Position numbers and translations under genes: made by a program. Positions 24,139 through 29,522 of a stretch of DNA of 64,000 nt are shown here, in pieces. Source of the DNA: Haloprofundus salinisoli (GTDB taxonomy: Archaea; Halobacteriota; Halobacteria; Halobacteriales; Haloferacaceae); NCBI RefSeq assembly GCF_020097815.1, contig NZ_CP083663.1, positions 2,728,001-2,792,000 of the forward strand, given 5' to 3'. Numbering within the stretch: position 1 is the first letter of the stretch; each line of letters begins with the position of its first letter. The notes under the pieces were generated by a model. It was not told where the DNA came from. It did not search any database and saw only the letters and a list, made by a program, of their open reading frames with translations.

Positions 24139-24154
24139 GCTTGCTATGGCAAGC
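24139..24154 (+). promoter_or_regulatory. Inverted repeat before the acidic operon
   Basis: Arms GCTTGC and GCAAGC flank the loop TATG, 40 bases before the ATG of the first acidic gene. It could be an operator or a small hairpin; no clear TATA box was located with it. Confidence 0.35.
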
Positions 24155-24194: not shown

Positions 24195-25166
24195 ATGGAT
24201 TCGGAACGTTCACCCGAGCGAGTCGGACGGCTAGCAGCAGACGAAGTCGAACAGAGAGTACTGCCGGACGGCGGGCAGTCAGCCGAGGCGGAAGACGAAG
24301 AGGAGGACGACGAGTCGGAGACGTCCGAATCCGCCGAGGAGACCGAACAGTCCGAGGAGTCCGCAGACGAGGAAGAGTCGGAAGCCGAGGCCGAACCCGA
24401 AGGCGAGGAAGCCGAAGAAGGTGGAGAAGGCGAAGAAGGCGAGGAAGGCGAAGAAGGCGAGGAAGACGAAGAAGACGAAGAAGGCGGAGAAGATGAAGAA
24501 GGTGGAGAAGACGAAGAAGGCGGAGAAGATGAAGAAGGTGGAGAAGACGAAGAAGGCGAGGAGTATCCCTCCGAAACGGCCAAAGAGAAGGAAGAGGCCT
24601 CCGACAAGCGACAGGAGGCGATGCGGGGTGAGGACGAGACCGGAGTTCTCTTCTTGGACCTCGAAGGCCTGCATCTCGACCTACTCGGACTGGAGGTGGA
24701 CCTCGGCGACGTCGTCTTGGACATCTCCGCCCAAGAGGGCGAGGGGAACCTCGTCGGCAACCTACTGGCGGCCGTCGCCGGACTGCTCGACGACGGACTC
24801 GGCAACATCGCGGACAAACTCCCGGGCATCCCCGAACTCCCGGAGATGGGTGACCTCCTCCCGTCGCTCGGCGGCGAGGGCGAGGACGGCGAGGGCGGTC
24901 CCCTCTCGTCGGCGGCGGACGCCACCAAGAACACGCTCAAATCCGCCGCGAAGGAGCTCCCGCTCCAGGAGATTGCGGTCCAACTCGTCGTCGGGGTGGT
25001 GAACCAACTGTTCGGTGACACCGACGAGGAGGAGGAAGCCGAGGCTGACGAAGAGGAAGAAGCCGAGGCTGACGAGGACGGAAGCGACGAGAGCGAAGCC
25101 GAAGAGACCGAAGGCGAGGAGACCGAATCGAGCGACGAAGAGGACGAGGGGGACGACGAGTCGTGA
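24195..25166 (+). CDS. Extremely acidic repeat protein with an LLGL-VDL-DI domain (acidic operon gene 1)
   Basis: 323 residues from ATG 24195 ('MDSERSPERVGRLAADEVEQ'). Residues about 27-135 are nearly all Glu, Asp, Ser and Gly, with GGEDEE repeats near 97-120 encoded by an 18/36-bp DNA repeat. Residues about 150-222 form an ordered domain, 'LDLEGLHLDLLGLEVDLGDV' then 'GNLVGNLLAAVAGLLDDGLG', resembling a domain of unknown function I know mainly from actinobacterial surface proteins. A second acidic tail ends the protein. No signal peptide is seen. It is the head of a four-gene operon; its stop overlaps the next start. Function unknown. Confidence 0.8.
   Translation: MDSERSPERVGRLAADEVEQRVLPDGGQSAEAEDEEEDDESETSESAEETEQSEESADEEESEAEAEPEGEEAEEGGEGEEGEEGEEGEEDEEDEEGGEDEEGGEDEEGGEDEEGGEDEEGEEYPSETAKEKEEASDKRQEAMRGEDETGVLFLDLEGLHLDLLGLEVDLGDVVLDISAQEGEGNLVGNLLAAVAGLLDDGLGNIADKLPGIPELPEMGDLLPSLGGEGEDGEGGPLSSAADATKNTLKSAAKELPLQEIAVQLVVGVVNQLFGDTDEEEEAEADEEEEAEADEDGSDESEAEETEGEETESSDEEDEGDDES
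24483..24554 (+). repeat. 36-bp minisatellite (two perfect units) coding GGEDEE repeats
   Basis: Units 24483-24518 and 24519-24554 are identical, each made of two near-identical 18-base halves that differ by third-position changes. The repeat is in frame, so unit number can change without breaking the gene. Confidence 0.85.
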
Positions 25167-25411
25167 GCGAGTCGTCGATTCTCGGTCGCCTAGACGTGAC
25201 CGAGCTGCTGACTAGCCTCGACTACGACGAACTGCTGGCCGACACGAAGTGGGACGGAATTCAGGACGAGGACGGTCTCGGCGAGCAGCTCGGTGGCCGG
25301 GGCGGCGAAGTCCTCGGTGCACTCGTCGGCTCCGCGCTCGGCGCACTGCTCGGTGAACGCGTCGTCAAAGGCGCGCTGACCCGATTTACCGGAGGGAGCG
25401 GCGATGAGTGA
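25163..25411 (+). CDS. Glycine-zipper small protein (acidic operon gene 2)
   Basis: 82 residues from GTG 25163, which overlaps the TGA of gene 1 by 4 bases. Residues about 40-72 form a Gly-rich amphipathic helix, 'LGEQLGGRGGEVLGALVGSA' then 'LGALLGERVVKGAL', with small residues every third or fourth place as in glycine zippers that pack helices or insert into membranes. The N-terminal half has 'LDVTELLTSLDYDELLAD'. It is conserved in style with the opening of gene 3. Function unknown. Confidence 0.75.
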   Translation: MSESSILGRLDVTELLTSLDYDELLADTKWDGIQDEDGLGEQLGGRGGEVLGALVGSALGALLGERVVKGALTRFTGGSGDE

Positions 25412-26225
25412 CTCGTCGTCCTCCTCGTCGTCTTCGATACAGAGCGTCGTCGCCGACGAAGTCGGAGACCAGATAGACGGCCGGCAGGTCGGCGAGAGCG
25501 TCGGCCGAAAGATCGGCAGTCGACTGGGTCGCGAACTCGGCAGACGGCTCGGCCATACGGTCGACGAGACCGTCCGAGAGGGCGTCGAAGCGGGAAAGAA
25601 GCCGTTCGAGATTCTCGGCGACGTCAAAGAGACGCTCAAACAGGCGATCCTGAACTCGCTCGGGACGCGCGAGGCGGTCGAGGAGAGCGCCAGCGTGCTA
25701 CGCGACGCGGTCTCCGAACCGAGCGAAATCGAGCAGACGGCCGAGGAAACCGCGGAGACGGCCACGGAGTCCGCCGAGAGCGCCAAAGAGCAAGCGACGG
25801 ATACGGCCGAGAGCGCCGCCGAGAAGACGACCGACACCGCCGAGAAAGCCACCGACCAAGCGGCGGACGCCGCCGAGAGCGCTACGGAACAGGTGACCGA
25901 CACCGGCGAGAGCGCCGAAGAGACAGCCGAGGGCGACGAGGAGACGGCCGACGAAGCCGAGTCCCGCGCGACGGGCGGCGTCCCCGACAACCTCAGCGAC
26001 GTCCGGCGGGAGACGTACCGGGAACTGCTCGAAACCGTCTCCTACCGGGAACTGCAGTCGATGGCGAAGGACGCCGAGATCAAGGCGAATCAGAGCCGCG
26101 AGGAACTCGTCGACGACCTCGTCGAGCAGTTCGACCAGGAGACCGACGAGGACGACGAAACCGACGAAGCCGACGAGACCGACGAGGCAGACCAGTCCGA
26201 CGACGGGGGTGACGGAGACGAATGA
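25404..26225 (+). CDS. Acidic LEA-like repeat protein with a SAP-like C-terminal motif (acidic operon gene 3)
   Basis: 273 residues from ATG 25404, overlapping gene 2. Residues about 12-60 have 'GDQIDGRQVGESVGRKIGSR' and continue as a Gly-spaced amphipathic helix like that of gene 2. Residues about 108-180 hold T-A-E-[ST]-A-x-E repeats reminiscent of LEA-type 11-mers. Residues about 195-235 carry 'TYRELLETVSYRELQSMAKD' and 'IKANQSREELVDDLVEQF', a SAP/Rho-N-type helix-extended-helix often used to touch nucleic acid. A Glu/Asp tail ends it. Nucleic-acid binding is inferred from that motif only. Confidence 0.75.
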   Translation: MSDSSSSSSSSIQSVVADEVGDQIDGRQVGESVGRKIGSRLGRELGRRLGHTVDETVREGVEAGKKPFEILGDVKETLKQAILNSLGTREAVEESASVLRDAVSEPSEIEQTAEETAETATESAESAKEQATDTAESAAEKTTDTAEKATDQAADAAESATEQVTDTGESAEETAEGDEETADEAESRATGGVPDNLSDVRRETYRELLETVSYRELQSMAKDAEIKANQSREELVDDLVEQFDQETDEDDETDEADETDEADQSDDGGDGDE

Positions 26226-27046
26226 CCGACGCCGCCGAGAACGTCAACCGCCTCCTCGAAGAAGCGACCCAGGCGCTCTCGGCGCCCGACGACGAGCGCG
26301 ACGACCGACTCCGCGAACTCGCCGACGAGACGGCGGCGTTCGTCGACGAGACGTCGACCGCCGACCTCATCGAAGGCGTCGGCCTCACCGACGACGACGG
26401 CGGGCAGGTGAAGACGATTCCGAACGCCCTCGCCGTCGGCAGCGAGGACTCTGTGCTCGGCCTCAAGACGATTCTGGCGCTGTCGAACGCCGAGAACCTC
26501 GACGACCCCGACGCGATGAGCAACCTTCGTGAACGGCTCTCCGAACTCACCGGCGGGTCCGAGCAGTCGGCGGACGAGGACCCGACCGACGAAGGCGAGG
26601 AACCCGAGCAAGCCGACGAGACGACGGCCGAGGCGGACGAGGTCGAAGAGACCGACGCCGAGTCGGCCGAGGAACCGGCAGTCGAGGGCTCCGGAGAAGC
26701 CGAAGCGGACGAAGAAGACGGGCCGCTTCTCACGGAGTCGCTGCAGTCGCAACTCGACGAGGCGGCCGACTCGATCAGAGCCAGTATCGAACAGATGCAG
26801 GCCGACGACGAGGGGGCCACGGACGAGGAGGCCGAAGCCGAAGCCGAAGCCGAGGCCGAGGCCGAGGCCGAAGCCGAGACCGAAGAAGAGGACGACGGTC
26901 TTCTCGACGTCGGCCGCGACGACATCGGCGACGACGTCGGCGACGACCGCGATTCCCGGGGACGTGCGACGATGCACTCGACCGTGCCGAAGTCACGCCG
27001 CGACATGAACGGCGTCGCCCGTCATTCGACCGTTCCGAAGCGGTGA
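26222..27046 (+). CDS. Acidic protein with duplicated HSTVPK C-terminal motif (acidic operon gene 4)
   Basis: 274 residues from ATG 26222, overlapping gene 3 by 4 bases. Residues 1-115 are a helical domain beginning 'MTDAAENVNRLLEEATQALS'. Residues about 118-165 and 195-240 are Glu/Asp/Ala tracts, the second with a run of EA dipeptides. The last 27 residues are basic and carry the motif HSTVPK twice, separated by 'SRRDMNGVAR', a short signal that looks like a conserved docking or targeting tail. No enzymatic motif. Last gene of the operon. Confidence 0.75.
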   Translation: MTDAAENVNRLLEEATQALSAPDDERDDRLRELADETAAFVDETSTADLIEGVGLTDDDGGQVKTIPNALAVGSEDSVLGLKTILALSNAENLDDPDAMSNLRERLSELTGGSEQSADEDPTDEGEEPEQADETTAEADEVEETDAESAEEPAVEGSGEAEADEEDGPLLTESLQSQLDEAADSIRASIEQMQADDEGATDEEAEAEAEAEAEAEAEAETEEEDDGLLDVGRDDIGDDVGDDRDSRGRATMHSTVPKSRRDMNGVARHSTVPKR

Positions 27047-27094: not shown

Positions 27095-28309
27095 ATGATA
27101 CCACACCTGTCGACTGTCCGGGCGACGCTGACGAACGTCGTCGCCGAGTTTCGCTCGAAGAACGTCGCGTTCATGGCCGGCAGCATCGCCTACAACGCGT
27201 TCGTCTCGCTGCTCCCCCTGCTTCTGTTGCTCGTCCTCTCGGTGTCGGTCGTCGGCAGCGCCGCGCTCGAACGCCGGGTTATCGAACTCGCGGCGACGTA
27301 TCTCGCTCCCGGCGTCGGCGAGACGCTTCGGGAGGTGCTGCGGGAGGCCAACGACAACACCGGCTTCTCGCTCGTCGGCATCGTCGTGCTGCTGTGGGGG
27401 ACGCTGAAGATATTCCGCGGGCTCGACACCGCCTTCGCCGAGATATACGAGACCGAGGACACGGACGAGTTCGTCGACCAACTCCGCGACGGACTCGTCG
27501 TCTTCGTCGCGCTCCTGGTCGCCGTCGTCGCCATGATCACGACCGGGTCGGCCTTCGCCGCGCTCGCACAGCGACTCGCCATCGGCGTCCTGAACCCGCT
27601 GTTTCTCGTCGTCGCCCTCAGTATCGCGTTCTTCCCGCTGTACTACATCTTCCCGAACGCCGACCTCTCGATCAGAGACGTCGTTCCGGGACTCGTCACC
27701 GCCGCCGCGGGGTGGGCGGCGCTCCAGGCGCTGTTTCAGGTGTACGTCGCCGCCTCCGCGAAGACGGACGCCTACGGCGTCCTCGGCGGTATCGTCCTCC
27801 TCGTCACGTGGCTCTACTTCGCCGGCCTGCTCCTGTTGCTCGGGGCAGTCATCAACGCCGTCGTCGGCGGGTACGTCGGCGACGGCGTTGACGACGGTTC
27901 GGGTCCCGAGCAGGCTGACCTTTTCGACGTCATCGACGCCCGCGGCGTCGGAAACGCGGCACCCCACCGAACGCATCGGAAAACGCGGCTGACGCCGGAC
28001 GAAACGGCGACGTACCTCGACCGCTTCCGCGAGGACCTGACCGATCGATATCGCGGCATGCGACCGACCGACGGCGAACGGTCTCACCGGTCTCCCGCCG
28101 CAGCGACCGAAATCGGATTGCTCGAACGCTCGTACGAGACCGACGGCGACCCCGTCTACGAGACGTGCTTCCGGTGGCGCGTCCCCGAGCGAGAGTCCGA
28201 AATCGACGCCGACGCCACCGCCGACACGCCCGGCACCGCCGACACCGCCGACCCCGGTGAAGCGGACGAGTCCGCGCCGGCCGACGCGCGGCGAGCGGAG
28301 GAGAACTGA
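27095..28309 (+). CDS. YihY/virulence factor BrkB family membrane protein (copy 1)
   Basis: 404 residues with about six transmembrane helices, starting ATG 27095. Family hallmarks are 'VAFMAGSIAYNAFVSLLPLL' near 28-47 and 'GIVLLVTWLYFAGLLLLLGA' near 232-251. Long historical annotation as RNase BN is doubtful; the family is a membrane protein of unclear role, possibly transport. A soluble acidic C-terminal part (about 290-404) is unusual in the bacterial family. It is followed directly by a close paralogue. Confidence 0.9.
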   Translation: MIPHLSTVRATLTNVVAEFRSKNVAFMAGSIAYNAFVSLLPLLLLLVLSVSVVGSAALERRVIELAATYLAPGVGETLREVLREANDNTGFSLVGIVVLLWGTLKIFRGLDTAFAEIYETEDTDEFVDQLRDGLVVFVALLVAVVAMITTGSAFAALAQRLAIGVLNPLFLVVALSIAFFPLYYIFPNADLSIRDVVPGLVTAAAGWAALQALFQVYVAASAKTDAYGVLGGIVLLVTWLYFAGLLLLLGAVINAVVGGYVGDGVDDGSGPEQADLFDVIDARGVGNAAPHRTHRKTRLTPDETATYLDRFREDLTDRYRGMRPTDGERSHRSPAAATEIGLLERSYETDGDPVYETCFRWRVPERESEIDADATADTPGTADTADPGEADESAPADARRAEEN

Positions 28310-28373: not shown

Positions 28374-29522
28374 ATGAGCACCCGGCGCTCCCCTATCGCG
28401 GTGGGCAGAGGCGTCCTCGCGGAGTTCCGTTCGAAGAACGTCGCGTTCATGGCCGGCAGCATCGCCTACAACGCGTTCGTCTCGCTGATTCCGCTTTTAC
28501 TTCTGGTCGTGCTCCTCGTGTCGCTTCTCGGCTCCGAGCAACTCGAAGGACGGGTCTCGGGTCTGGTCGCGTCGTCGCTGACTCCCGCGACGGGGGAGCT
28601 GGTCTCGAACGCCCTCGACAGCGCGAGCGAGGGTACCGGACTCTCCATCGTCGGCGTCGTCGTCCTCCTGTGGGGGACGTTGAAGATATTCCGCGGGCTC
28701 GACACCGCCTTCTCGGAGATTTACGAGACCGAAGGGAGCAACGAGTTCGTCGACCAACTCCGCGACGGACTCGTCGTCTTCGTCGCACTCCTCGTCGGCA
28801 TCACGGCGATGGTCGCCGCCAGCACCGCCTTCGCCGCCTTCGAATCGCTACCCTGGGTCGGACTGCTCAACCCGCTCGTGTTAATTCTCGGGCTGAGCAT
28901 CGCGTTCCTCCCGCTGTACTACGTGTTCCCCGACGCCGACCTCTCGGTCCGGGGGATCCTTCCCGGCGTGCTGACGGCGGCGGTCGGGTGGGCGCTCCTC
29001 CAAGGCGTGTTCCAGTTCTACATCGCCTTCTCGGACAAGTCCGAGGCGTACGGCGTGCTCGGCGGCGTCATCCTCCTCGTGACCTGGCTCTACTTCGGCG
29101 GCCTCGTCCTCCTGCTCGGCGCAGTGGTCAACGCCGTCGTCGGAGGTTACGCGACCGGTGCGTCGGGCGGCGTCGGCCGCGGTGCCGCCGAGCGTGCGGC
29201 GAACCGCGAACTGCTGCGCGAAGACCGCCTGAACCGCGACCAGGCGGCGTCGTACCTTCGACGACTCCGTGAGGACGTCGCGCGGCGCTACGAGGGGATG
29301 GAACCGATGTCCACCGACGGGACGCCCGGTCGTTCTCGGATGCCGGAGACCGGCACGCTCGAAGTCGAAGAGCGAGCGTTCGAGGAAGACGACGGGCGGA
29401 CCTACGAGGTACGACTCCGGTGGGAACTCGGAGAGAGCGACGCGCACACCGGGGCGGCTGCGGCGACGGACACCGCCGACGCGGACTCACCGGACCGGTC
29501 GTCGACGCCCGCAGACGACTGA
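28374..29522 (+). CDS. YihY/virulence factor BrkB family membrane protein (copy 2)
   Basis: 382 residues from ATG 28374 ('MSTRRSPIAVGRGVLAEFRS'). It repeats the architecture of the gene before it, with the same 'VAFMAGSIAYNAFVSLIPLL' and 'GVILLVTWLYFGGLVLLLGA' segments and an acidic C-terminal soluble part. 57 bases (28431-28487) are identical to the first copy at 27155-27211. The gene pair is a tandem duplication. The intergenic gap is 64 bases, so joint transcription is likely. Confidence 0.9.
   Translation: MSTRRSPIAVGRGVLAEFRSKNVAFMAGSIAYNAFVSLIPLLLLVVLLVSLLGSEQLEGRVSGLVASSLTPATGELVSNALDSASEGTGLSIVGVVVLLWGTLKIFRGLDTAFSEIYETEGSNEFVDQLRDGLVVFVALLVGITAMVAASTAFAAFESLPWVGLLNPLVLILGLSIAFLPLYYVFPDADLSVRGILPGVLTAAVGWALLQGVFQFYIAFSDKSEAYGVLGGVILLVTWLYFGGLVLLLGAVVNAVVGGYATGASGGVGRGAAERAANRELLREDRLNRDQAASYLRRLREDVARRYEGMEPMSTDGTPGRSRMPETGTLEVEERAFEEDDGRTYEVRLRWELGESDAHTGAAAATDTADADSPDRSSTPADD

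Follow-up and report, generated by a model that had tools for sequence, protein, structure and literature searches.

A conserved four-gene operon as a probable accessory gas-vesicle module of haloarchaea whose gvp clusters lack gvpC, gvpD and gvpE

Gas vesicles are hollow protein floats of microbes, and GvpC is the classical external protein that stabilises them. Knowledge of haloarchaeal gas vesicles has come mostly from Halobacterium, Haloferax mediterranei and Haloquadratum, the clusters of which carry gvpC. Loss of GvpC leads to long, weak vesicles and loss of GvpI to very long ones (PMC7688916, PMC9501494); in Halobacterium, loss of GvpN leaves tiny vesicles (PMC7688916). GvpI binds GvpH, GvpL and GvpC (PMC7688916, PMC9501494) and promotes the formation of GvpJ, GvpK and GvpM oligomers (PMC7688916). 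Reviews also list vac regions without gvpC, gvpD and gvpE, and the species concerned are said not to form vesicles (PMC4390858). According to a study of Natrialba magadii, such clusters encode a long protein resembling GvpI and have one additional gene (Nmag_0337/Htur_2371); this gene lies in the cluster, and the paper describes no four-gene operon elsewhere in the genome (PMC3403918). A description of the four-gene operon analysed below was not found in the open-access literature.

This operon, here designated g1-g4, is located in a 64,000-nucleotide stretch of the 3.42-Mb genome of Haloprofundus salinisoli (the window). A previous examination of the letters alone (the sequence-only reading) had described four genes overlapping by 4 to 8 bases, and the overlaps were confirmed as 4 (GTGA, g1/g2), 8 (ATGAGTGA, g2/g3) and 4 bases (ATGA, g3/g4), all genes lying on the + strand between 24195 and 27046. 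The features are as follows.

24139..24154, strand not applicable: perfect 16-bp palindrome GCTTGCTATGGCAAGC, 41 nt 5' of the g1 start
24195-25166, + strand: g1, ATG start; acidic protein of 323 aa (D+E 40.9%) with a conserved core
24636..24833, + strand: conserved core of g1 (ETGVLFLDLEGLHLDLLGLEVDL...GNLVGNLLAAVAGLLDD...), with invariant positions in 11- and 63-sequence sets
25163-25411, + strand: g2, GTG start; glycine-zipper protein of 82 aa (D+E 19.5%)
25292..25354, + strand: glycine zipper of g2, G44-G48-G52-G56-G60-G64, one glycine every 4 residues, invariant or nearly so
25404-26225, + strand: g3, 273 aa (D+E 28.9%); glycine zipper, long amphipathic helix and SAP-like C-terminus
25491..25553, + strand: glycine zipper of g3 (G30-G50), related to that of g2; model helix 26-62
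25731..25904, + strand: long helix of g3 with 11-residue amphipathic repeats; model helix 110-167
25992..26162, + strand: SAP/Rho_N-like domain of g3, from the AlphaFold model, Foldseek and weak Rho_N matches
26222-27046, + strand: g4, 274 aa (D+E 31.8%); acidic protein assigned as a GvpI paralogue
26972..27043, + strand: basic tail of g4 (MHSTVPKSRRDMNGVARHSTVPKR), a GvpI signature matching NPAAHSTMPP...HSTVPK of Halobacterium GvpI

All four proteins had been credited with Glu/Asp-rich tracts. This was borne out for g1, g3 and g4 (29-41% D+E), the acidity of which is exceptional even among haloarchaea, but not for g2, which is ordinary; six neighbouring proteins contain 12-23% D+E. A MaoC-like dehydratase gene and a paaK-like gene lie 5' of g1, and two YihY/BrkB genes and paaABC-like genes lie 3' of g4. 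A link of g1-g4 to these adjoining genes was rejected, given that the paa/YihY neighbourhood is common to congeners only. The YihY/BrkB genes encode membrane proteins, occur side by side directly 3' of g4 (27095-28309 and 28377-29522), and are reduced to a single copy in some congeners. All five Haloprofundus genomes keep the palindrome GCTTGCTATGGCAAGC 5' of g1, and the window genome has no other such site (1 match in the window against 0 expected); it was not found in the genome's gvp cluster. It is possibly an operator or a 5'-leader element of the operon.

The sequence-only reading had proposed that gene order be compared across haloarchaea. A scan of the genome collection with the g1 core retrieved 55 loci, which were haloarchaeal without exception, and the order g1-g2-g3-g4 was kept at 48 of 65 distinct g1 loci, again all haloarchaeal. 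Because the same order recurs at so many loci, the set goes far beyond chance. Conserved synteny, which the sequence-only reading had named as support, was thus found.

One tie of the operon to gas vesicles was found in g4. Its C-terminal end is a doubled HSTVPK motif (MHSTVPKSRRDMNGVARHSTVPKR); this duplicated basic tail, picked out earlier from the letters, turned out to be the signature found in GvpI of Halobacterium salinarum (NPAAHSTMPP...HSTVPK). Among the 9483 ORFs of the fetched loci, 31 contained a doubled STxP motif, and 28 of these were g4 or GvpI. When g4 was compared by hhalign with the long proteins at the GvpI position, the two aligned over 234 columns (probability 99.3, E 1.2e-20); against the Halobacterium form of GvpI, the tail alone aligned (probability 60, E 9e-5). 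Used as a control for g4, g1 was rejected as a GvpI homologue by the same kind of profile comparison. At the loci inspected, GvpI of GvpC-class clusters was short and basic (117-144 aa), and GvpI of the other clusters was long and acidic (about 263-383 aa). In the C-terminal STxP...STVPK signature g4 resembles Halobacterium GvpI, and over the 234 columns it resembles the GvpI of clusters without gvpC, which is long and acidic; g4 is acidic (pI 4.05), whereas Halobacterium GvpI is basic (pI 10.8; PMC9501494). In Natronorubrum bangense, the long GvpI is annotated as a hypothetical protein, and the name gvpF has been given to a GvpG-like gene (84 aa).

Two defining features of GvpI proper are its location between gvpH and gvpJ and a RIYGxRF stretch past the signature. 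In contrast, g4 stops at STVPKR without this stretch and lies outside the gvpH-gvpJ position, the window copy being 1.85 Mb from the gvp cluster; moreover, that cluster has a regular GvpI of its own. Because of this location, and because the gvp cluster has its own GvpI, g4 was filed as a GvpI paralogue and not as GvpI, an assignment based on sequence comparison in which two defining GvpI features (location and the RIYG stretch) are missing. No named family was assigned to g1, g2 or g3.

In g1, a long acidic linker surrounds a core of ~50 residues with the pattern VLxLDLxGLxLxLLGLEV.L..V.LD.SA..G..L.GNLL..V..L, many positions of which are invariant. The LDLLGLEVDL block, noticed previously as a domain of the first gene, is its most conserved part. 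Pfam and profile searches matched g1 to no known family, and the core was rejected as a GvpA/J/M-like shell protein (hhalign probability 0.2). AlphaFold modelled the core with a pLDDT of 52 from a 63-sequence alignment, from which one plasmid-record row had been left out. Sequence searches of the PDB returned nothing relevant. The conserved core would be the likely partner-binding part of g1.

The Gly-spaced helices ascribed to two of the genes were located in g2 and at the N-terminus of g3, which matched each other with an hhalign E of 9.6e-8 (about 1e-7). Both share G-x3-G repeats with the Pfam Glycine zipper family PF05433, but the Pfam scores remain below the cut-off (for g2, E 3.8e-4 and 20.7 bits against 24.2). 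In the long helix of g3, identity peaks at lags of 11 and 22, and the hydrophobic period is 3.62; in this amphipathic repeat helix g3 resembles GvpC. However, PF05465 repeats, which characterise GvpC, occur neither in g1-g4 nor elsewhere in the genome, there is no homology between the two proteins, and g1-g4 form a four-gene operon that is usually unlinked to gvp genes. No sequence similarity links g1-g3 to GvpC or to any other Gvp protein, which counts against a gas-vesicle role. The candidate identity of g3 as a PHA-granule phasin was rejected (phasin_2, E 0.78, 10 bits against a cut-off of 99.7), as was a PHA-granule role for g1-g4 as a whole, for which a family match and supporting gene context were not found.

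The SAP/Rho-N-type end seen in the letters corresponds to a putative C-terminal three-helix, SAP-like domain of g3 (AlphaFold pLDDT mostly >90). Its best Foldseek matches were SAP-domain entries (3'hExo, DEK and Tho1) with weak E values of 0.4-3.6, and Pfam Rho_N matched g3 homologues at E 0.003-0.02; the likeness to SAP/Rho_N domains lies in the fold, and the Pfam scores fall below the cut-off. The same tail also occurs in other haloarchaea as a fusion, once with ribosomal protein S3 and once with an Hsp20-like protein (loci L018:8223-9167 and L020:7955-8548). Matches to g3 in genomes G031 and G033 were rejected as g3, being SAP-like tails on Hsp20 and ribosomal S3. Through this domain, g3 might tether vesicles to nucleic acid (DNA or RNA) or to some other partner, thereby positioning or clustering them in the cell. 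We consider this improbable: because ribosomal S3 and an Hsp20 carry the tail elsewhere, it is not specific to positioning, and a tether leaves unexplained the exclusion with gvpC documented below. As for the nucleoid- or envelope-associated structure imagined earlier, no family match or gene context spoke in its favour, despite the SAP-like end.

Co-occurrence with gvp genes was determined in 293 genomes of the order, with the gvpA family scored as PF00741. Homologues of g1 were present in 100 genomes, 98 of them strong, and 97 of these 98 contained gvpA-family genes; the sole exception was a 70% complete MAG. Conversely, g1 occurred in 1 of 172 gvp-negative genomes (P = 4e-53, a value that overstates independence because the sampled genomes are related). 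At the genus level, g1 was found in 37 of 48 gvp genera, compared with 0 of 39 genera lacking gvp.

GvpC was counted only where genuine repeats were present at the gvp locus (eight genomes); three weak single PF05465 matches distant from gvp genes (G068, G075 and G090; E 4-7e-4) were not counted. By this measure, gvpC was absent from 113 of 121 gvp-bearing haloarchaea. Whereas 97 of the 113 gvpC-less genomes carried g1, none of the eight gvpC-positive genomes did (P = 8e-7, again overstated by kinship). GvpD was counted only at E below 1e-70 (PF07088), and raw counts were dropped because weak matches were to other RecA/KaiC-type ATPases; g1 was found in 0 of 7 genomes with genuine gvpD. GvpN above the cut-off was absent from the window genome and from 14 of 19 other g1-bearing genomes tested, and present in 8 of 8 GvpC genomes. 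Because gvpC, gvpD and gvpE occur together, these data are silent on which absence matters, and the gvpC exclusion, being inseparable from the rest, is a weakness in linking the operon to a gas-vesicle role. The 16 gvp-positive, gvpC-negative genomes without g1 also weigh against such a role. In one of these 16, G260 (locus L093), gvp genes are present, g1 was not detected and g3 is interrupted by a TAG codon and a frame change, which suggests, from the sequence, decay of the operon.

The position of g1-g4 relative to gvp clusters was also determined. Within the fetched stretches, gvp genes were found at 13 of the 65 g1 loci. Homologues lie within gvp operons at L019, L037, L039-L041 and L050, and beside a gvp cluster at L017, L043, L061, L078 and L092; at L017, a complete g1-g4 operon adjoins the cluster. 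Halocatena and its relatives carry g1 in the gvpH-gvpI interval of the gvp operon. This interval holds g1 and a glycine-zipper gene at L019 and L039-L041, and g1 sits between gvpH and gvpI in Halocatena salina (L037). The gvp cluster of the window genome (L021:7623-12557; C1, about 895-901 kb) lacks gvpC, gvpD, gvpE and gvpN. In the window and in most genomes, however, the operon is distant from the gvp cluster, which argues against a shared role, and in Natronorubrum bangense (L068, L036) it is chromosomal and a plasmid carries a gvp cluster. Both arrangements favour the reading that g1-g4 are a separate system which merely travels with gvp, for example through a common habitat, and acts in another process. 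We regard this as highly unlikely, since g4 is a GvpI paralogue, some copies lie within gvp operons, and g1 tracks gvp even inside genera: in genus g49, G078 has gvp and g1, G085 has gvp, gvpC and gvpD without g1, and G049, G093 and G100 have neither. Such contrasts inside a genus go some way to offset the kinship of the sampled genomes.

Taken together, gene order, a near-absolute dependence on gvp, exclusion with gvpC and gvpD, the paralogy of g4 and GvpI, and homologues inside gvp operons lead us to conclude, with a probability of roughly 85%, that g1-g4 are an accessory gas-vesicle module accompanying haloarchaeal gvp clusters without gvpC, gvpD and gvpE. The proposal of an undescribed system stands insofar as no account of g1-g4 as a unit was found, but not as something apart from known systems such as gas vesicles, to which profile comparison and co-occurrence do link the genes, an outcome that the sequence-only reading had counted as refutation. 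In this changed form, g1-g4 are a module not yet described among the parts of the gas-vesicle system.

How the module might act can be outlined. The proteins would act at the GvpA shell, with g4 using its STxP tail to dock on the assembly complex, much as GvpH, GvpL and GvpC are bound by GvpI. The glycine zippers would let g2 and g3 form oligomers, and the amphipathic helix of g3, long and acidic, would lie along the shell and contribute some of the external reinforcement or control of shape for which GvpC is responsible in other systems. That g1-g4 substitute for GvpC at the shell is a tentative suggestion, somewhat short of even odds, drawn from the exclusion (gvpC and g1 occupy complementary gvp genomes), the amphipathic repeats and homology. 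Nearly as likely is a purely assembly-stage role, in which g1-g4 would be chaperones or nucleation or length-control factors working with GvpF-M, like GvpH and GvpI, and remain outside the finished shell. The kinship of g4 with GvpI, which promotes GvpJ, GvpK and GvpM oligomers and the loss of which yields very long vesicles (PMC7688916), agrees with such a role, as does the placement of g1 and a glycine-zipper gene among assembly genes in integrated clusters; the g1/gvpC exclusion and the likeness of the g3 repeats to a surface-lying helix point instead to the shell surface.

The report that GvpC-less species are vesicle-free (PMC4390858) speaks against an accessory gas-vesicle module, and because of it the function of g1-g4 may not show in the laboratory. 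A bolder and rather unlikely extension is that there is a second archaeal class of gas vesicle, with GvpA shells lacking GvpC, GvpD, GvpE and often GvpN, in which g1-g4 supply the missing functions. If so, the product may differ from classical vesicles in shape, strength or contents, which could explain why widespread GvpC-less clusters have been thought silent. Clusters without gvpC are those of most gvp-bearing haloarchaea sampled, and most of these genomes carry g1, with the whole operon at most loci. The operon gives four candidate Gvp-associated proteins, possible new parts for gas-vesicle engineering, and a defined gene set with which to address the apparent silence of GvpC-less clusters under laboratory conditions.
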